Shown here: positions 5-22,664 of the stretch, in pieces
Numbering within the stretch: the first letter of the stretch is position 1
Layout of the letters: each line of letters opens with the position of its first letter
Virus record (IMG/VR): IMGVR_UViG_3300043409_000858
Span: 1 to 23,069 of that record
Origin: a virus
Length of the DNA stretch: 23,069 nucleotides
Reading direction: 5' to 3' (one strand)
The notes under the pieces: model-generated
Databases searched by the model: none
What the model saw: the letters and a program-made list of their open reading frames with translations, nothing else
What the model was told of the DNA's origin: nothing
Translations under genes and position numbers: made by a program

Positions 5-523
5 ATGGCAAAAGCACAAACACTGAGTGAGCTGGCTGACAACATTGCAACCAGGCAGATGAACCAAAAAGAACTTGCCAACATCGAGCGCAAAGAGATG
101 TCTGGGATCAATAAGAAAATTCACGCCTTTGGCGGTGAAGCTATGCTCTTTGACCATATTGCCGAAGGTAAGACCATCGATTCAGTGATTAAGTCTTTGG
201 ACATAAGCATCGGTGGTTTCTACAAATGGATAGAAAAAGATGCCAAGCGGGGGGAACTCCTCGCGCGCGCACGTACGCGAGGTGGGAGAAGTTTAGCAGA
301 ACAGACGCTAGAAATTGCAGACAACGCAAGCCCTCAAGAGGCGCAAGTGGCCAAGCTGAGAGTGGACACAAGGCGCTGGCTGGCCTCTAAGCAGGCTCCA
401 GATGAGTATGGTGACAAGCAGCAGCCACTGGTCAACATCGACCTGGGGAGCATGGCCCTTGATGCACTGCGCAAACGAACTGTCGTATCACTAGACAATT
501 TGACGGATATGAATACCAAATGA
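5..523 (+). CDS. terS: Terminase small subunit (DNA recognition for packaging)
   Basis: This 172-residue protein most likely recognises the phage DNA packaging site and hands it to the large terminase. A helix-turn-helix-like stretch lies at about residues 43-77 (EGKTIDSVIKSLDISIGGFY), the usual N-terminal DNA-binding element of small terminases. It is followed by a charged helical region and a conserved-looking segment KLRVDTRRWLASKQAPDEYG (about 118-137), which I recognise from phage small-terminase proteins. It starts at the first ATG in the window. The large terminase follows about 830 bases downstream, separated by a non-coding stretch and three tiny genes, which is looser spacing than usual. 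The family call rests on recognised motifs and on position. Confidence 0.85.
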   Translation: MAKAQTLSELADNIATRQMNQKELANIERKEMSGINKKIHAFGGEAMLFDHIAEGKTIDSVIKSLDISIGGFYKWIEKDAKRGELLARARTRGGRSLAEQTLEIADNASPQEAQVAKLRVDTRRWLASKQAPDEYGDKQQPLVNIDLGSMALDALRKRTVVSLDNLTDMNTK

Positions 524-552
524 TTCAGCTACTTTATACAACGACCATTATG

Positions 553-590
553 TTAAGTGCATAAGTAGTTATCCACAGAATTAAGTGCAT
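553..590 (+). repeat. 10-bp direct repeat flanking the first DnaA box
   Basis: TTAAGTGCAT occurs at 553-562 and again at 581-590, 28 bp start to start, with the first DnaA box between the copies. It may be an iteron-like binding site for a phage protein; only two copies are seen. Confidence 0.5.
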
Positions 591-633
591 CAAAGTATTA
601 CATCGACAGTTATGCACAGGAATCTGTGGATAA
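569..633. promoter_or_regulatory. Cluster of three DnaA boxes
   Basis: TTATCCACA lies at 569-577 (+), TTATGCACA at 610-618 (+), and TGTGGATAA at 625-633, which is TTATCCACA on the - strand. All match TTATNCACA exactly. The last two face each other with a 6-base gap. By base composition alone one such site would be expected about once per 30 kb of double-stranded DNA, so three in 65 bp is unlikely to be chance. The host initiator DnaA is the expected binder. Confidence 0.65.
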
Positions 634-835
634 GGTTGGCCAAAATCTGGGGACAAGTCGGTGGTGGTCGGCTGCCGGCTGGTGGCCGCGACCCCCCCCC
701 GTGGCCGGTTTGGCGGGGGCGACTGTGGCGGCACTAAACACCTACAAAAAAAATTTTCTAAAAAATAAAAAAATAATTTACCAAACAAGTCAAATTGTGC
801 AAAAATGTCAATTCCACAAACAACGGAGCAACTGA

Positions 836-1158: not shown

Positions 1159-1352
1159 AGAGTAATTTTGTAAATAATCCGGTGAGATTGAATGGCAACT
1201 GCCACGGTCATAAACTACAGAGATGTAGTAAGTGTTTGGCTGAGAAGCCGCCAGAGGGTGGGGTTGAGCTGAGTGCGACCAAGTGGTTGTGTGCATCTTG
1301 CTGGACCGATAGGATCACGGGCAGGAACTTAAAGCAAGTGAGGGGTTTGTGA
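1155..1352 (+). CDS. Small zinc-ribbon-like protein (65 aa)
   Basis: The protein has two CxxC knuckles, CSKC at about residues 24-27 and CASC at about 46-49, spaced as in a small zinc ribbon. It starts at GTG 1155, overlapping the previous stop by four bases, and its stop overlaps the GTG start of the large terminase at 1349. Small zinc-finger proteins just upstream of terL are common in phages; some are HNH nucleases, but no HNH residues are present here. It may bind nucleic acid or assist the terminase; this is inference from position. Confidence 0.7.
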   Translation: MKSNFVNNPVRLNGNCHGHKLQRCSKCLAEKPPEGGVELSATKWLCASCWTDRITGRNLKQVRGL

Positions 1353-2755
1353 AAGAGAATGTTTTTTCTCAGTGGGTAGAGAGGTATCAGCCTGATCCAG
1401 TGCTATTTGTGCGGGAGGTTTTGGGGGTTGACCCTGACCCGTGGCAAGTGAAGTTTCTTGGGGCAATAGCACGGGGGGATAGGAAGATAAGTGTCAGGAG
1501 TGGCCACGGGGTGGGAAAGAGTACGGCAAGCAGCTGGGCCATGCTCTGGTACTTTATGACTAGATCGCCAGTCAAGGTGGTGGTGACTGCACCGACAAGC
1601 TCGCAGCTGTATGACGCGATGTTTGCCGAGCTGAAGAGGTGGATCAATGCGATGCCTTTGCCCTTGCAGGGATTGTTGACTGTCAAGCAAGAGAGGATTG
1701 AATTCAATGCTGCACCGACTGAGATGTTTATAAGTGCCAGGACAAGTCGGGCAGAGCAGCCAGAGGCTTTGCAGGGAATTCACAGTGAGAACGTGATGCT
1801 GGTGGCTGATGAGGCTTCTGGTGTGCCGGAGCAAGTGTTCGAGGCTGCGGCTGGATCGATGTCTGGGCATAACGCGGTGACGCTGCTACTGGGTAATCCG
1901 GTGCGAAGCAGTGGGTTTTTCTACGACACGCATACGCGCCTGGCTGATGAGTGGACCACGTTTCAAGTGGCTTGCACTGACTCGCCAAGGGTAAGTGATG
2001 AGTACGTCAAAGAGATGGCCATGCGGTATGGCGAGGAGAGTAATGTCTACCGGATCAGGGTGATTGGGGAGTTTCCCAAGGGGGATGACGACACTGTGAT
2101 TGCCATGGATTTGCTGGAAAGTGCGGTCAATCGGGATGTTGCGCCAAGTGACTATGCGCCCATGATCTGGGGATTGGATGTGGCGCGGTTTGGGTCGGAC
2201 AGGTCAGCACTGTGCAAAAGGCAGGGCAATGCGGTGACAGAGAATATCCGGACATGGAAAAATCTGGACCTGATGCAGTTGACTGGTGCGGTGGTGGCTG
2301 AGTACCAGGCGCTGCCGCCCAGTCAGCAGCCAAAGGAAATACTGGTTGATAGTATTGGCCTTGGGGCTGGGGTGGTGGATCGGCTGCGGGAGCTGGGGCT
2401 ACCGGCCAGAGGGATCAATGTCAGTGAAAGCCCTGCGATGGGTGGGACTTACAGGAACTTGAAGGCAGAACTTTGGTACAGGGCAAGAGCTTGGTTTGAG
2501 GCACGGGACTGCAAGATGCCAAAGGATGAGGTGCTGATTGCTGAGCTGGCCACAGTGCGGTACAACTTCACAAGCAATGGCAAAATTGCCATTGAGGGGA
2601 AAGATGAGATCAAGAGGCGGGGGCTGCCAAGCCCTGACAAGGCCGATGCCTTTGTCCTGACGTTTGCAAGTGACGCGGTCGCGGGGATGTACGGGTCAGC
2701 GGGTAGTAGCAAGTGGAGCCAACCCCTGCGCAGAAACCTGGTGCGGGTTGCATAA
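1349..2755 (+). CDS. terL: Terminase large subunit (packaging ATPase and nuclease)
   Basis: This 468-residue motor protein cuts concatemeric phage DNA and pumps it into the prohead using ATP. The ATPase half shows Walker A SGHGVGKS (51-58), Walker B VMLVADEA (149-156, with the Asp-Glu pair at 154-155) and a coupling motif LLLGNP (179-184). The nuclease half shows the RNase-H-like acidic residues: Asp277 in WGLDVARFG, Asp334 in ILVDSIGLGAG and Asp430/Asp433 in SPDKADAF. Length and motif order match P22/Sf6-type large terminases. It starts at GTG 1349, overlapping the zinc-ribbon gene by four bases. All catalytic landmarks are intact. Confidence 0.96.
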   Translation: MKENVFSQWVERYQPDPVLFVREVLGVDPDPWQVKFLGAIARGDRKISVRSGHGVGKSTASSWAMLWYFMTRSPVKVVVTAPTSSQLYDAMFAELKRWINAMPLPLQGLLTVKQERIEFNAAPTEMFISARTSRAEQPEALQGIHSENVMLVADEASGVPEQVFEAAAGSMSGHNAVTLLLGNPVRSSGFFYDTHTRLADEWTTFQVACTDSPRVSDEYVKEMAMRYGEESNVYRIRVIGEFPKGDDDTVIAMDLLESAVNRDVAPSDYAPMIWGLDVARFGSDRSALCKRQGNAVTENIRTWKNLDLMQLTGAVVAEYQALPPSQQPKEILVDSIGLGAGVVDRLRELGLPARGINVSESPAMGGTYRNLKAELWYRARAWFEARDCKMPKDEVLIAELATVRYNFTSNGKIAIEGKDEIKRRGLPSPDKADAFVLTFASDAVAGMYGSAGSSKWSQPLRRNLVRVA

Positions 2756-3601: not shown

Positions 3602-3894
3602 AGACTCCAGCTTGGCAGCGTAAAGAGGGTAAGTCACCCTCTGGCGGCTTAAATGCCAAGGGTCGGGCAAGTGCCAAGGCCGAGGGTATGAACTTAAAAG
3701 CGCCAGTCAAGGCTGGCGACAACCCAAGACGGGCATCATTCTTGGCGCGCATGGGCAATATGCCTGGGCCTGAGATGAAGGGCGGTGAGCCGACCAGGCT
3801 GCTGCTGAGTCTGAAGGCATGGGGCGCAAGCTCCAAGGCCGATGCCAAATCTAAGGCAGCTGCGATCAGTGCCAGAAATAAGGCCAAGAAATGA
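3598..3894 (+). CDS. DUF6321-like small basic protein (98 aa)
   Basis: The sequence MKTPAWQRKEGKSPSGGLNA, then RASFLARMGNM about 40 residues further on and a late AWGASSKADA repeat-like segment, match the type I know as DUF6321. It is widespread in phages with unknown function, often beside DUF6496 proteins. Lys, Arg and Ala dominate; there are no Cys residues or membrane spans. It overlaps its neighbours by four bases on both sides. The family name is from memory. Confidence 0.75.
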   Translation: MKTPAWQRKEGKSPSGGLNAKGRASAKAEGMNLKAPVKAGDNPRRASFLARMGNMPGPEMKGGEPTRLLLSLKAWGASSKADAKSKAAAISARNKAKK

Positions 3895-4583
3895 TTTGTC
3901 CAATTGTCATTGCCACTGTGAGAGGCCATGGTCTGGCCGTATTGCTAGAGAGTATTAAGCAATATGCGCCAGAGTGTCCGGTCTATCTGCGAGGCCCTGA
4001 GTCGGTGCTTGAGAACTTTGAGGCTGACCTTAAAATTTATGGTCAACCAAGAAACTTTGGCGATGACTATAACGAGATCATTGAGGCGGCCATGAAAGAC
4101 TGGTCGTCATGCATTGTGGCCAATGACGACATAGTGCTGACACCTACCAGCGTGAAAGTGCTGATGGAGGATGTGCAAATCGTGAGAAGTATGAACAGTG
4201 TCAAGCCTGGATGGGTGGCGGCAAGGTGCGATGCGGCACGGCCCATCCAAAATGTGCGCATTGGCAAAGAGGGCGAGAAGATTAAAGGGTTTAGATTTCC
4301 ATCTGAAAGCTACATCAGAATGAGCCAAGTGGTCAGCCCAATCTTTGCATGGATATCAAGTGATGCATTTGAAGAGGCAAAGTTTCCCCCTCTGAATTGG
4401 TACTCAGATGATGTGCATTGTATGGATTTGGTAAGAAAAGGCTATGCACATTTTGTGTCGGCCAGTTATGTCCACCATATTGGCTCAAACACGATTGGCA
4501 TGGAATTTCAAAAGTTACATGAAGATGCGCTGCCATGGCTTAAAGAGAATCGACCCGAATATGCAAAGGCATGGTTTGAATGA
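3891..4583 (+). CDS. GT-A-fold glycosyltransferase-like protein
   Basis: A 230-residue protein with the layout of a small family-2-type glycosyltransferase. It opens with a beta strand MICPIVIATVRGHG, has a nucleotide-sugar/metal-binding acidic motif CIVANDDIVL (Asp79-Asp80) in place of DxD, a second acidic pair WYSDDVHCMDL (Asp173-Asp174) where the catalytic base is expected, and a late His motif YVHHIGSNTIG (about 193-203). It could transfer a sugar to a virion protein, phage DNA or host surface; the acceptor cannot be read from sequence. It is coupled by four-base overlaps to the gene before and to the methyltransferase after. Confidence 0.75.
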   Translation: MICPIVIATVRGHGLAVLLESIKQYAPECPVYLRGPESVLENFEADLKIYGQPRNFGDDYNEIIEAAMKDWSSCIVANDDIVLTPTSVKVLMEDVQIVRSMNSVKPGWVAARCDAARPIQNVRIGKEGEKIKGFRFPSESYIRMSQVVSPIFAWISSDAFEEAKFPPLNWYSDDVHCMDLVRKGYAHFVSASYVHHIGSNTIGMEFQKLHEDALPWLKENRPEYAKAWFE

Positions 4584-5095
4584 GTCACCAAGAACAACTT
4601 AATTTTGTGGCCGCTGTAAAGGCTGAATTCCCAGAATACTTCAGCCAGACCAAGGTCTTGGAAGTTGGCTCTTTAGACATCAATGGCAGTGTCAGGCAAT
4701 TCTTTGAGAATCCAGACAAATACATTGGCTGTGACTTGGGCGAAGGACCAGGGGTGGACATTGTCTGCACCGGCCATGAGCTGCCATACCCAGACGGGAT
4801 GTTTGATGTGGTGATCTCATGCGAGTGCTTTGAGCATGACAAACACTGGGAAAAGACATTTCAAAAGATGATTGACTTGGTGCGGGATGGTGGTTTAGTT
4901 ATTTTCTCCTGTGCCACAATAGGCAGACCGGAGCATGGCACGACTAGAACTTCACCGGCAGACGCGCCATTCACAAACGATTACTATAAAAATTTGAGAG
5001 AGGAAGATTTCAATGACTTCAAGCCTCTCTTCAAACAATACAGATTTGGTCAGTGCCTTAGACCACGCGACCTATATTTTTGGGGATTGAAATGA
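4580..5095 (+). CDS. Class I SAM-dependent methyltransferase
   Basis: The 171-residue protein shows the Rossmann-fold methyltransferase landmarks. Motif I is VLEVGSLDING (26-36); an acidic residue follows the second strand (Asp52 in YIGCDLGEG); DGMFDVVISCECFEH (72-86) is the motif-IV region of the Methyltransf_11 type; and DGGLVIFSC (103-111) follows. No target-recognition domain is present, so a small molecule, sugar or protein is a likelier substrate than DNA. Coupling to the glycosyltransferase upstream (ATGA 4580-4583) suggests the two act on one product, for example a methylated glycan. It overlaps the portal start by four bases. Confidence 0.8.
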   Translation: MSHQEQLNFVAAVKAEFPEYFSQTKVLEVGSLDINGSVRQFFENPDKYIGCDLGEGPGVDIVCTGHELPYPDGMFDVVISCECFEHDKHWEKTFQKMIDLVRDGGLVIFSCATIGRPEHGTTRTSPADAPFTNDYYKNLREEDFNDFKPLFKQYRFGQCLRPRDLYFWGLK

Positions 5096-9836: not shown

Positions 9837-10154
9837 ATGATTCACAAAAGACTATTTAGCGAAAACAAAGATCAAGGCATCAAACGCTACTGGCATGAGA
9901 ATGCTGATACTGGCGATGTGACGATCGAAACAGAACAAGATGTCACAGCGGTCATTGAGGCCAACAAGGCCATCTATAACGCTGTGGATGAGAAGGCTGC
10001 ATGGAATGGTGAGTGGCACTTGGTGGCATCCATCCCCGAAGCGCTTTATTACAAGATGAAGGCCGAGGGCAAGATCGATGACCAGGAATACATGAAAAAA
10101 TGGCTCAACGATTCCGACAACCAATTTTTTAGAACTAGACCTGGGAAAGTATGA
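9837..10154 (+). CDS. Small protein after the capsid gene, unknown function (105 aa)
   Basis: A 105-residue protein whose segments HKRLFSENKDQGIKRYWHEN, GKIDDQEYMKKWLND and the ending FFRTRPGKV I recognise as a recurring small phage protein encoded next to capsid genes; its function is unknown. I chose ATG 9837 because an in-frame TTG at 9819 would lie inside the terminator stem. No Shine-Dalgarno is visible before 9837, so translation may be weak or depend on the hairpin. The stop overlaps the next start (ATGA 10151-10154). Confidence 0.75.
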   Translation: MIHKRLFSENKDQGIKRYWHENADTGDVTIETEQDVTAVIEANKAIYNAVDEKAAWNGEWHLVASIPEALYYKMKAEGKIDDQEYMKKWLNDSDNQFFRTRPGKV

Positions 10155-10795
10155 ACTACATTGCAGTCTGCACGCCAGCACGGGACATGGTTCACACCAT
10201 GTACAGCTACGACTTGGTCAATATGGTGGCTTATCACACACTCAACACAAATGATGCTGTGAGCCTCAAGATCAGTCAAGGCACTCTAATTGCCAATCAG
10301 AGGGCAGAGCTATCACTGGATGCAATGCATGAGAATTGCACTCACATTCTCTTCATTGACTCTGATATGCGGTTTCCGCAAGACATGATTGGGCGGCTTT
10401 TAAAGCATGACCTAGATATTGTGGCGACCAACTGTGCCAGGCGCAGAATGCCAACTGGCCCGACAGCGCAGCTCTACAAAGAGAATGGCGACAGGGAATT
10501 GGTCTGGACCATGCCAGAGTCCACCGGACTGCAAGAAGTGGGGTCTGTGGGGATGGGTGTAATGCTCATCAAGGCCAATGTTTTTGCGGCACTGGCTGAG
10601 CCTTGGTTTGAAACGCCTTGGCGACATGACAAAAGAGGCTACATTGGTGAGGATGTTTATTTTTGTCAAAAAGCAGCAGCTGCTGGCTTTAAAATATGGA
10701 TTGACCACGATGTCTCCAAAGAGATTGGACACATAGGGACTTTTGAATTTAAGCACGACCACACTTGGGTGATGAAAGAAATAGAGGCAGCCTAA
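10151..10795 (+). CDS. Second GT-A-fold glycosyltransferase-like protein
   Basis: A 214-residue family-2-like glycosyltransferase. The canonical DxD is clear in ILFIDSDMRF (Asp70-Ser-Asp72) at the end of the nucleotide-binding half, preceded by IANQRAELSLDAM. A catalytic-base type Glu-Asp sits in GYIGEDVYFCQKAAAAGFKI (163-182), and His194 in EIGHIGTFEF could be the third metal ligand. It is more canonical than the first glycosyltransferase (3891-4583). It is coupled to both neighbours by overlaps and sits between capsid and adaptor genes. Glycosylation of virion proteins is a natural guess but not shown. Confidence 0.82.
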   Translation: MNYIAVCTPARDMVHTMYSYDLVNMVAYHTLNTNDAVSLKISQGTLIANQRAELSLDAMHENCTHILFIDSDMRFPQDMIGRLLKHDLDIVATNCARRRMPTGPTAQLYKENGDRELVWTMPESTGLQEVGSVGMGVMLIKANVFAALAEPWFETPWRHDKRGYIGEDVYFCQKAAAAGFKIWIDHDVSKEIGHIGTFEFKHDHTWVMKEIEAA

Positions 10796-11427: not shown

Positions 11428-13359
11428 ATGGCAGATACCACCACCACAAACCTATTGCTGACAAAGCCAGAAGTTGGGGCCAGTACTGACACATGGGGTA
11501 CTAAGGTCAACACTGACCTCGATTTAATTGATGCATTGTTTGATGCCGGCCCACTGTTAAAAGTGACAAAAGGCGGCACTGGTGTCGGCACAAGCACAGG
11601 CTCTGGAAACAATGTGTTGTCCACCAGCCCGACTCTTGTCACGCCAGTTTTAGGTACTCCAACATCAGCAACGCTAACCAACGCCACAGGACTGCCAATT
11701 TCAACGGGTGTGAGTGGATTGGGAACTGGCATAGCCACTTTCTTGGCCACCCCATCATCTGCCAATCTTGCTTCTGCTGTTACAGACGAAACAGGAACTG
11801 GCAATTTGGTATTTACCAATTCACCCACTTTGGTGACACCAGCACTTGGAACACCATCTGCGGCTGTACTGACCAACGCCACAGGACTGCCCTTAACCAC
11901 TGGTGTGACTGGCTTGTTGCCAGTGGCCAATGGCGGCACAGGATCGGCTACAGGAGTGGCTTTAGCCACTGGTGTGACTGGGACATTGGCAGTGGCCAAT
12001 GGCGGCACTGGCCAGACAAGCTACACCGATGGCCAGCTGCTGATTGGTAACAGCACCGGCAACACTTTGACTAAGGCATCTTTGACCGCTGGGTCTGGTG
12101 TGACCATCACGCCAGGCGCTGGGTCTATCTCCATTGCATTCACTGGCCCAGGCGCTGGTTCAGTTACCAGTGTTGGTGTATCGGGTGGCACAACTGGACT
12201 GACCACAAGCGGCGGCCCAATCACCTCCTCTGGCACAATTACTTTGGCAGGGACACTGGCGGCAGCAAATGGCGGCACGGGTTTAACAGCATCTGGCAGC
12301 AATGGAAATGTACTGACAAGTAACGGCACGACTTGGACAAGTTCTGCACCAGTTGCTGGCGGTGTTTCTTACACAGCAGTCAAAACAGCCAACTACACAG
12401 CCGCAAACAATGATGGTGTTTTAACAAATACAACGGGCGGTGCTTTTACAGTTACTTTGCCTACAAGCCCATCAGTAGGTAATATTGTTGTTGTTGTTGA
12501 CTCTTTTAGCCAATGGGGAACAAATAATTTAACGATTGACCCTACGGCATCTATTAAGATTGCTGGCAATACGGCTGGTGACACATTGACTTGTGATATT
12601 ACGGGGATAACTGTCACGCTTGTTTATACAGGCGCAAGCTATGGGTGGAATGTTTCTGCACAGATTGGTGGTAATAGTGGGACAGTGGTTACATTAACTG
12701 GCACACAGACTCTTACGAATAAGACTCTGACAGCACCAACAATTGCATCAGCTAATTTGACAACAGCATTGACCCTTGCGGGTGCGGCTGGCACTAACGG
12801 ACAAGTGCTGACAAGCGCAGGATCAGGTTTGCCTACTTGGTCTTCGCCAAGTTCAGGTGCAATGACTTTAATTAGCACACAAACCGCTTCATCTAGTTCA
12901 AGCATATCTTGGACTGGTTTAACTGGTTACAACAATTATTTATTGATTGCATCAGGTATAGATTTTTCCGGCAGTGATTATTTAGCTTTAGAATTTGGAA
13001 CTGGCGGCACTCCAACTTATGTAACTACAGGATATTATAATAGTATGACTGCTGTTGATATTGGTTCAACTACAACAGTAAATAGCTACAGAATTTCAAA
13101 TTACTCAACTGCCATGTTAAGTAATCCCAATCAATCTATTCTTAAAACAAATTGTGTATGTTACATATTTGGAATGACAAATTCAAATAACACAACCTTA
13201 TCTTTTCAATCAAATGGTGTTACATCCGTGCCAGCATACGGAAGTTATGTTGGTCAATCTACATTAACAAACACAACAGCTAAAACAGCTATTAGAGCAA
13301 CAGGTGGAAATAGTAATACATTTAGTGGAACATTATCTCTTTACGGCATTTCATCTTAA
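11428..13359 (+). CDS. Tail fibre protein
   Basis: A 643-residue fibre. The N terminus [20 protein letters not shown] (about 8-27) is the anchor type seen in many podovirus fibres. The shaft is Gly/Thr/Ser-rich with recurring GGTG turns (KGGTG, ANGGTG three times), typical of trimeric beta-helical fibres. A 24-residue unit beginning SPTLVTP occurs twice (residues 67-90 and 132-155). Residues 428-471 are a module shared with the protein at 13664-14302. The tip (472-643) switches to A/T-rich codons and a new Ser/Asn/Tyr-rich sequence, suggesting exchange of the receptor-binding end. The start follows AAGGA at 11417-11421. Confidence 0.9.
11626..11892 (+). repeat. Two 72-base repeat units in the fibre shaft
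   Basis: Units at 11626-11697 and 11821-11892 encode near-identical 24-residue segments, [20 protein letters not shown] and [20 protein letters not shown], each ending TGLP. They are structural repeats of the beta-helical shaft. Confidence 0.8.
12709..12840 (+). repeat. Fibre module, copy A (44 codons)
   Basis: This encodes the segment from [20 protein letters not shown] to SGLPTW. It matches copy B (13730-13861) at 43 of 44 residues but differs at 31 of 132 bases, almost all synonymous. It ends just before the fibre tip starts. Confidence 0.9.
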
Positions 13360-13663: not shown

Positions 13664-14302
13664 ATGGCTACAGTAGCATTATCTGGAATCATCACACCTA
13701 GCAATGTTGTCACGGCAACAAGCACAACTACGCTTACCAACAAGACGCTGACTGCACCTACTATCGCATCAGCTAACTTAACTACAGCACTAACCTTGGC
13801 TGGCGCGGCTGGCACTAACGGTCAGGTTTTAACCAGTGCTGGGTCTGGGTTGCCATCGTGGACGACTCTCAGCGCTGGTGTTGCTGAAAGTGATGTATAT
13901 GTAACAACAGGTAATGGACACGGAAGCACTAATACAAAAATAAGGCGGTATACAACAACTACAAAAAATGCTGGAACAAACATAACTTATGCTGATAGCG
14001 CAAGTAATGGAGCCTCATTTACGATAAATACTACTGGTGTTTATACCATTTCAATAGGTGATATTAAAGCTAGTGGATTTTTTGTTGGAATATCCCTTAA
14101 CTCTACTCAGTTAGCCACTAGTATTATATCCATCACAGCTGCTAACGAATTGGCAGCGATGTATATTGATGGTGGTGGAGGGGGGTGTATATGTATATCT
14201 GCATATCTAACTGCTACAGATGTAGTAAGACCGCATGGTGATGGTGGGGCAACTGGGTCAACCAGAGAACAGTCATGGTTTAGAATTACGAGGGTAGGAT
14301 AA
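13664..14302 (+). CDS. Second tail-fibre tip protein, without an anchor domain
   Basis: This 212-residue protein lacks the N-terminal anchor of the main fibre. It begins MATVALSGIITPSNVVTATS, then carries the shared 44-residue module (23-66), then a distinct tip. The tip resembles a C1q/TNF-like beta sandwich (ASFTINTTGVYTISIGDIKA, and a late Gly-rich turn before CICISAYLTATD). It may be an alternative receptor-binding tip, a subunit added to the fibre, or the remnant of a longer fibre that lost its 5' part. It starts behind GGGAGC (13651-13656), so it is probably translated. The next gene overlaps its stop (TAATG) and encodes a fibre chaperone. Confidence 0.8.
   Translation: MATVALSGIITPSNVVTATSTTTLTNKTLTAPTIASANLTTALTLAGAAGTNGQVLTSAGSGLPSWTTLSAGVAESDVYVTTGNGHGSTNTKIRRYTTTTKNAGTNITYADSASNGASFTINTTGVYTISIGDIKASGFFVGISLNSTQLATSIISITAANELAAMYIDGGGGGCICISAYLTATDVVRPHGDGGATGSTREQSWFRITRVG
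13730..13861 (+). repeat. Fibre module, copy B (44 codons)
   Basis: Same protein segment as copy A (12709-12840) with one Thr-to-Ser change next to the final Trp. Twenty-six of 44 codons are replaced by synonyms and 17 are unchanged, so the DNA identity is about 76%. Confidence 0.9.
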
Positions 14303-21146: not shown

Positions 21147-21511
21147 GTGACCAAGAGCATTTGGAAAGGCTGCGCCAACAAGTGGAGGCGGCATTAGAAT
21201 ACTCTGGAGGCACACATAATTTTGACGATATCGCTGAGATGGTTGAAGATCACAGATTACAGCTGTGGCCAGCCAAGAATTCGGTGGTATTGACAGAGAT
21301 CATTGTCTATCCCAGGCTAAAGAATTTGCATTATTTTCTGGCTGGTGGCGACCTAGATGAACTCTCAAGGATGAGACCATTGATCGAATCTTGGGGCAAA
21401 TCGGTTGGATGCACCAGGGTGACTTTGGCAGGCCGAAAGGGCTGGGCAAAGACATTTTTAAAAGACGAAGGATACAGTCCACAATGGGCTGTACTTGCAA
21501 AAGATTTATAG
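21143..21511 (+). CDS. GNAT-like small protein (122 aa)
   Basis: The segments HNFDDIAEMVEDHRLQLWPA, VVLTEIIVYPRLKNLHYFLA and GCTRVTLAGRKGWAKTFLKD match a recurring phage protein that reads like a reduced GNAT acetyltransferase fold. The usual acetyl-CoA loop (Q/RxxGxG/A) is not obvious, so activity is doubtful. It follows the nozzle by a four-base overlap and precedes virion genes, as in related podoviruses, and may have become a structural or regulatory protein. Confidence 0.7.
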   Translation: MSDQEHLERLRQQVEAALEYSGGTHNFDDIAEMVEDHRLQLWPAKNSVVLTEIIVYPRLKNLHYFLAGGDLDELSRMRPLIESWGKSVGCTRVTLAGRKGWAKTFLKDEGYSPQWAVLAKDL

Positions 21512-21521
21512 GGGAAAGACT

Positions 21522-22664
21522 ATGGCTACATTACCAGCATATTTTCAGCAAAATCCAGATGTTGCTGCTGCATATCAAAAAAACACCTATGGCTTAACGC
21601 CACAGGAATTTGCTGATACTCACTTTGCACTTTATGGCCAAACAGAGCAAAGGGCTGCGCCAGCTGCTGCGGTTACGCCTGCAACTATAACGCCAGCGGC
21701 CATGACACCTACAACAACAACGTCTGCGCCCCCAGCATTGCCAACATATTTTACGCAAAACCCTGATGTGGCGGCTTCATATTTAGTAAACAACTATGGG
21801 TTAACACCACAGCAATTTGCTGATACGCATTACACAAAATTTGGTCAGTATGAGCAACGTATTTCTCCATCAGGTGCGCCAGCAATCATTCCAAAAAAGC
21901 CAGTCACACCAGTGGTTAAACCACCAGTGACACCGGTTGTTAACACAACAAACACAGGCTCTTCACTGCAATATTTCAGGCTGAATCCTGATGTGGCTGC
22001 TTCATATTTAGTAAACAACTACGGCATGACACCAGAGCAGTTTGCGGCTGCGCACTTTGCAAAATATGGTCAGTTTGAAGAGAGGACTGCACCAAACGCA
22101 ACCCCATTTTTCAATGCGACTCAAGGCTTTGACCAGAATTTTCAGAACTATCAATCCATCCCAATTGGCTCTCAGTACAACCCCAATGCAGTTGGTGGCA
22201 CTGGCTCTCCATACTCTCAGATCATGGGCCAGATGAGACCAGCTGGTCCCTATAACCCATACATGGATGTGGTATCCAACACCCCAATGGGTGGCTATGA
22301 CCCAGGACTGTATAACCGAATTGCCCAAGCAAAGGCTGCGGCTAGTTTGCTTGGCGGGACTCCAGATCAAGCGGGTGGAATGTCTATTGGTGGTGATAGT
22401 GGTGTTAGTGGTGGCGGTGGCGATGGAAACACAGGTGGTGGCCCTGGCACTGGCGCTGCTGGTGATTCAGCATTTGCAAAAGGCGGCATGGTTAACAGTT
22501 TGCTTGGACCAGACCCACAAGGTCCAGACGATGGCATGGGCTATCTTGACAAGGGCGAATATGTGATCAAAAAGTCAGCAGTCAATAAGTATGGCAAAGG
22601 ACTTCTGGACATGATCAATGAAGGCAAAGTGCCTGCCAAGAAAATCAAGTCTCTTTTAGATTAA
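21522..22664 (+). CDS. Triple-repeat virion-type protein with Gly-rich linker
   Basis: The 380-residue protein has three copies of a roughly 41-residue unit (4-44, 73-113, 148-188) of the form YFxxNPDVAAxYxxNxYGLT followed by PQxFADxHFxxYGQxEQR, joined by Pro/Thr-rich linkers. An Asn/Pro-rich middle and a Gly-rich stretch (about 285-315) follow. The C terminus (GYLDKGEYVIKKSAVNKYGK, GLLDMINEGKVPAKKIKSLL) recurs in phage structural proteins. NPDV-type units also occur in bacterial surface proteins, so an adhesion or assembly role is possible. I chose ATG 21522 behind GGGGA (21511-21515) over an in-frame start at 21495. Confidence 0.8.
   Translation: MATLPAYFQQNPDVAAAYQKNTYGLTPQEFADTHFALYGQTEQRAAPAAAVTPATITPAAMTPTTTTSAPPALPTYFTQNPDVAASYLVNNYGLTPQQFADTHYTKFGQYEQRISPSGAPAIIPKKPVTPVVKPPVTPVVNTTNTGSSLQYFRLNPDVAASYLVNNYGMTPEQFAAAHFAKYGQFEERTAPNATPFFNATQGFDQNFQNYQSIPIGSQYNPNAVGGTGSPYSQIMGQMRPAGPYNPYMDVVSNTPMGGYDPGLYNRIAQAKAAASLLGGTPDQAGGMSIGGDSGVSGGGGDGNTGGGPGTGAAGDSAFAKGGMVNSLLGPDPQGPDDGMGYLDKGEYVIKKSAVNKYGKGLLDMINEGKVPAKKIKSLLD
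21531..22085 (+). repeat. Three protein-coding repeat units (21531-21653, 21738-21860, 21963-22085)
   Basis: Each 123-base unit encodes one NPDVAA...YGQ domain of the surrounding gene. Units 2 and 3 share a nearly unbroken DNA stretch around CTTCATATTTAGTAAACAAC, while unit 1 has diverged. Units 2 and 3 therefore look like a more recent duplication. Confidence 0.85.

Follow-up and report, generated by a model that had tools for sequence, protein, structure and literature searches.

A conserved cluster of DnaA boxes between the terminase genes of a phage family, a candidate distal arm of a two-cluster origin region

The DNA analysed here, referred to below as the window, is the whole of record IMGVR_UViG_3300043409_000858 (23,069 bp); its first gene is terS, and sequence 5′ of terS lies outside it. 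The features of the interval between the genes for the small and large terminase subunits are collected in Table 1, and the TerS protein of one relative also matches Sf6_terminase PF20901. Elsewhere in the window, genes that by eye resemble those for glycosyltransferases and for a SAM-dependent methyltransferase are found amid the head and tail genes (3891-5095 and 10151-10795), a tail-fibre-like gene pair shares a near-identical common segment (11428-13359 and 13664-14302), and a protein with repeat units of the form YFxxNPDVAxxYxxNxYGxTPxxFAxxHFxxxGQxExR is encoded at 21495-22664. In a genome collection, the search for a host led only to a contig of 3.7 kb from a gammaproteobacterial MAG and to a partial, possibly misbinned match in a MAG of Porticoccaceae. 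Lysogeny by means of a tyrosine integrase was considered and dropped, as PF00589 has no match in 23 phage records.

Relatives were gathered both through TerL and through TerS, giving 128 loci that contain both genes; these overlap in part, and the window is counted four times among them. TerL identity is 92-100% in the relatives used. The sets compared comprise 92 distinct sequences for the identity profile, 88 distinct ones that are readable for box types, 85 relatives for reading frames and 90 for the promoter comparison.

Table 1. Features of the terS-terL region of the window.
Feature	Positions	Strand	Evidence
terS, terminase small subunit	5-523	+	phrog_1482, E 9.6e-20
DnaA box 1, TTATCCACA	569-577	+	exact match; types in 88 relatives: TTATCCACA 51, ATATCCACA 36
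DnaA box 2, TTATGCACA	610-618	+	exact match; types in 88 relatives: TTATGCACA 75, TTATCCACA 11
Spacer GGAATC between inverted boxes 2 and 3, invariant	619-624		mean identity 0.98, 92 distinct sequences
DnaA box 3, TTATCCACA, inverted	625-633	-	exact match; types in 88 relatives: TTATCCACA 75, CTATCCACA 13
Degenerate further box positions	634-660	-	TTGTCCACA/TTATCCACA-like in 20/88 relatives; decayed in window
GC-rich element, C-tract 692-700, GGCGGGGGCGACTGTGGCGGCACTAAACACCTAC	689-745		mean identity 0.91
A/T block, AAAAAAAATTTT then variable A/T sequence	746-780		A8T4 part 0.97 identical
Promoter-like site TTTACC, 18 bp, AAAAAT	777-806	+	weak (8 of 12) in window; stronger in relatives
terL, terminase large subunit	1349-2755	+	phrog_2, E 2.5e-44

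A preliminary description of this DNA reported three exact DnaA boxes within 65 bp, and these are indeed present (569-633) and are the only exact matches to TTATNCACA in the window. Their number alone is ordinary, with 0.98 expected and at least three in 8 of 100 shuffles, but their clustering goes beyond chance, as none of 3000 simulated windows has three boxes within the observed span. The direct repeat of 10 bp, TTAAGTGCAT, that was said to flank box 1 can also be seen (553-562 and 581-590), although both copies occur in only 2 of 92 distinct relatives, and it was dropped as a conserved part. No iterons are found at this cluster. Inspection of the alignment, following PMC7561715, gave no run of at least three DnaA trios after the GC cluster, and the window has two separated CTA triplets only, neither of them conserved. 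The open reading frames that cross the terS-terL interval, of 69 aa on the plus strand and 103 aa on the minus strand, lack conservation: of the 85 relatives, 70 have no open frame on the plus strand and 71 none on the minus strand, and from one relative to another the boxes and the A/T block are not separated by a constant multiple of 3. With frames closed in most relatives and length changes that break them, a coding role for 524-835 was ruled out and the segment is taken as non-coding.

The boxes prove to be well conserved. With the exception of L077, L079 and L081, all 128 loci have exact boxes between the two genes, and their spacing is constant: box 2 follows box 1 at 41 bp, and box 3 follows box 2 at 15 bp. 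These offsets hold in 88 distinct relatives although terS, repA and gap length vary; over the 128 loci, TerS identities span 47-100% and the terS-terL gap extends from 643 to 3903 bp. Box sequence and spacing are better conserved than the nearby terS and repA. Across 92 distinct sequences, the boxes and the 6-bp centre average 0.92-0.98 identity, the bases immediately ahead of them 0.47 and those between boxes 1 and 2 0.71; one or two extra boxes follow box 3 in some relatives. In 19 genomes totalling 678 kb, 93 exact boxes fall within two clusters, this one and a second described below, versus 12 elsewhere. Distant TerL relatives (49-54%: phiM5, MW202711, MW202496 and C72C1) have 0-1 exact boxes each, which confines the feature to this phage family. 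An 18-bp scan of viral contigs for the element elsewhere gave a terS/terL context in all loci examined among the matches listed, except L215, L227 and L238, which have none of four marker genes.

The only relatives with a serine resolvase gene between terS and terL are ones that lack the boxes there (L077/G007, L079, L081, and MW202879.1 at 1188-1628 on the minus strand); the gene may be part of a resolution system for circular multimers. Two peculiarities of contig structure were seen among the relatives. At its contig end, L240 (IMGVR_UViG_3300020044_000658, 58-81) has the box pair and the terS start a second time in inverted orientation, probably because that end is a chimeric assembly; and L137, L138 and L141 all break in terS codon 126-127, where terS becomes highly conserved, probably as an effect of assembly.

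Beyond the boxes lie the GC-rich element and the A/T block, the latter with A or T at 34 of 35 bases; in every genome tested it ranks among the five 50-bp windows of lowest stability, and in several it comes first. Of 90 relatives, 51 have a sigma-70-like promoter match of at least 9 of 12 after the A/T tract, versus 2.3% of random windows. The C-tract, G-rich part and A/T tract are retained without any box in G007, L079 and L081, and in the resolvase group a strong promoter-like TTGACA..CATAAT follows the C-tract/A-T element (L081:2549 and homologous sites). Since this part outlives the boxes, it serves a function independent of them, and the duplex may melt elsewhere; the A/T block can be an unwinding element, a promoter (UP) element, or both. 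RNAalifold on the GC-rich part yielded invariant C-G pairs only, with no covariation.

A scan for further exact boxes adds none in the window. Whole-record scans of 22 relatives reveal a second three-box cluster ∼1.25-1.4 kb upstream of the terS-terL cluster. It consists of one box followed, after 120, 132 or 141 bp, by two boxes 11 bp apart, all on one strand, and in 76 of 80 loci it is situated 91-102 bp past the stop codon of rep, a gene with a ∼720-aa product containing PriCT_2 and AAA_25 domains. The stretch between the clusters holds a VRR-NUC gene, terS and a small reading frame, and the genes on either side of the point where rep ends and the iterons lie share the same direction. The upstream boxes are placed among iterons of ∼11 bp in direct and inverted copies, which are of several kinds: GTAAACCGGTA and its variants, CTAATRCGGAA, and GGGACG or CCGGACG types. 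Where the inverted copies vary, their two arms change in step. In the resolvase group the upstream boxes are still present and those between terS and terL are lost, and four loci with Rep type III have no boxes at the upstream cluster and keep the terS-terL cluster.

The Rep C-terminus and the iteron region vary in concert (Spearman 0.85), and the type of the one equals the type of the other in all readable distinct cases with no true mismatch, the one mixed entry (Rep type III with iteron II) being L157, in which the CCGGACG repeats were miscounted. Because iteron type follows Rep C-terminal type, the iterons are probably Rep's own sites, and the C-terminal domain of Rep probably binds its cognate iterons. 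There are three matched sets (L129:3635-4084 and homologous Rep C-termini, with the iterons directly downstream), and domain and iterons appear, from these comparisons, to have been swapped as matched sets among otherwise similar phages. In an AlphaFold model of fair confidence (pLDDT 81) the Rep C-terminus has a helix-turn-helix and a winged-helix-like order of strands, and as modelled it looks like a winged helix; structural matches are weak, the best being to cullin (Z 4.9), followed by CRP and CodY domains. Foldseek with this C-terminus gave no match under E 0.001, and a sequence search of solved structures with Rep gave nothing useful. We note that in L126 and L143 the Rep frame is shifted near its end, such that Rep identity values are meaningless there.

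None of 23 phage records encodes a DnaA DNA-binding domain (DnaA_C), and a phage-encoded DnaA-like binder was dropped as a candidate. Variation in the terS-terL cluster correlates little with that of Rep or TerS (Spearman 0.25 and 0.22), and so whatever recognises the cluster would be shared by all the phages' hosts. As the boxes follow neither TerS nor Rep and the phages have no DnaA domain of their own, host DnaA is the likely ligand, and it likely binds the boxes at both clusters.

The preliminary description looked to GC skew for an inflection at the terS-terL boxes, but this is not where it is found. The minimum of the detrended cumulative GC skew is 1458-1885 bp upstream of the cluster in 18 of 19 genomes, and 1003 bp upstream in the other. 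It coincides with the end of rep and the iterons, including in genomes with another rep type, and in G007 and MW202879, which have no terS-terL boxes, it is also near the 3′ end of rep. Third-position skew is -0.21 in rep, +0.13 in VRR-NUC, -0.01 in terS, +0.27 in terL, 0.03 in the portal gene and -0.11 in the capsid gene, and as it is uneven downstream, the skew evidence for the start site is moderate.

The explanation we prefer, and to which we give about an even chance, is that host DnaA binds the terS-terL interval as the distal arm of an origin region that has two clusters and is composed of iterons and DnaA boxes. The core arm of this phage's origin would most likely lie ∼1.4 kb upstream, beyond the edge of the window, because it is present there in the nearest relatives. 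It would comprise iterons and three DnaA boxes directly 3′ of the gene for the primase-helicase with PriCT_2 and AAA_25, and would be followed by VRR-NUC, terS, the terS-terL boxes and the low-stability A/T tract. The Rep C-terminal domain would bind its cognate iterons, as suggested by the type-for-type match, and host DnaA would occupy the boxes of both clusters; the Rep-iteron and DnaA complexes would then help to open the duplex, in the iteron arm or else in the A/T tract. Helicase and primase would both come from Rep, and extension by a host polymerase is proposed because no phage polymerase was seen. Given the Rep type III loci without core boxes and the resolvase group without terS-terL boxes, neither cluster would be strictly required, and joint action would not be needed.

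A simpler arrangement, that the interval is a self-sufficient origin in which DnaA on the three boxes opens 746-780 and a fork starts between terS and terL, we think quite unlikely. The exact, conserved boxes do adjoin a tract that is the genome's least stable 50 bp in several relatives, and they are there even where the upstream cluster has none; however, the skew minimum lies 1.5-1.9 kb upstream, as do the rep gene and the iterons, the A/T tract persists without boxes, and a run of at least three DnaA trios is lacking after the GC cluster (PMC7561715). The host-DnaA-dependent origin of the preliminary description stands insofar as conserved boxes are concentrated at two sites in phages with no DnaA domain, although with the skew minimum, rep, iterons and a second cluster all upstream the interval is not supported as an origin by itself; the A/T-rich block, assigned to that origin, has the low stability expected of it, but is kept where the boxes are gone and lies just upstream of a likely promoter. 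Alternatively, the interval may be a regulatory region with no direct part in initiation, where DnaA controls a promoter just downstream that feeds terL and the structural operon, or is titrated, and the A/T tract is an UP element. The late operon starts at this interval, and both the frequency of promoter-like sites after the A/T tract and the strong site in the resolvase group speak for it. We nevertheless hold a regulatory region to be unlikely, if worth keeping in mind: the boxes are ∼145 bp upstream of the -35 site, which is far for a simple repressor, the promoter match in the window itself is weak, and the second cluster at the iterons is left unexplained.

It is improbable in our estimation that the GC-rich and A-tract sequence at 689-757 is a packaging start (cos, pac or the edge of a terminal repeat), with the boxes serving replication separately. 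The strong conservation of this GC-rich non-coding stretch, next to A-tracts in the terS-terL gap, would suit such a site, as would its survival where boxes are lost, and in the distant phage phiM5 (52% TerL identity) a 357-bp terminal repeat ends just before terL. Against this, there is no covariation with TerS type (0.22), pairs at 54-57% TerS identity share 94-97% of the site, and contig ends, albeit a poor proxy for virion ends, do not pile up there. The link between replication and packaging that the preliminary description suggested is one of position only; the boxes do not follow TerS type. Hairpins containing DnaA boxes, of the A-site kind, have been described (PMC6127211), and the inverted boxes 2 and 3 could in principle fold in single-stranded DNA into such a structure to load the host helicase in the style of an ABC primosome, TTATNCACAGGAATCTGTGGATAA being an inverted repeat with an invariant 6-bp centre. 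We regard this as very improbable, as the stem contains a G.G mismatch in 77 of 88 distinct sequences, so that pairing is lost while recognition of TTATNCACA is kept.

The two-cluster origin region can be extended to a bolder, rather doubtful proposal, in which the origin is split by terS, DnaA on both sides of VRR-NUC-terS and a swappable Rep-iteron core would form one initiation complex, and the distal arm would also start the late terL operon and possibly packaging, such that replication, late transcription and packaging would be timed at one 1.6-kb locus. Should the two-cluster reading itself hold, these phages, an abundant freshwater family, would rely on the host's replication timer DnaA at two fixed sites, with the phage initiator and its iterons swapped as a matched cassette while the DnaA sites stay; the dependence of replication on host range and cell cycle would be directly testable, and the phages would offer a natural set of matched Rep-iteron specificities. 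A limited check of the open-access literature found no report of DnaA-box clusters flanking a terminase small-subunit gene.

In layout, the phage region resembles the bipartite oriC of B. subtilis, H. pylori and C. difficile in having two gene-separated box clusters, an organization in which a gene lies between two DnaA-box clusters and an unwinding region beside one of them (PMC7561715). It differs in that terS and VRR-NUC, instead of dnaA, are between the clusters and no DnaA trio was found, and it is therefore not a strict bipartite oriC. The placement of the proposed origin directly 3′ of a primase-helicase gene is like that in the pRN1-type replicon and in the proposed BPP-1/BIP-1 origin, and the BPP-1 replication protein has PriCT_2 (PMC4234260). 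Unlike the phage region with its AAA_25, iterons and boxes, pRN1 combines an SF3 helicase with a stem-loop and lacks DnaA boxes. Phage P4 uses two separate sites, ori and crr. P4 alpha with ori/crr, and RSF1010 with oriV, similarly combine helicase and primase functions with iteron recognition, and P4 alpha has a winged helix at its C-terminus with which it binds repeats (PMC4234260); the primase of P4 alpha is Toprim, however, RSF1010 needs three proteins, and neither system is defined by DnaA boxes.

In P1 both DnaA-box arrays are close together at one origin, whereas ∼1.3 kb containing VRR-NUC and terS separates the phage clusters, and Rep is a primase-helicase. One of the two arrays in P1 is able to act as a back-up (PMC4980987). 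We liken the working of the phage region to that of iteron plasmid origins (PMC4980987), and infer binding, looping, opening and initiation here. As in P1 oriR and the iteron plasmids RK2, F and pSC101, iterons for a cognate Rep are found together with DnaA boxes.
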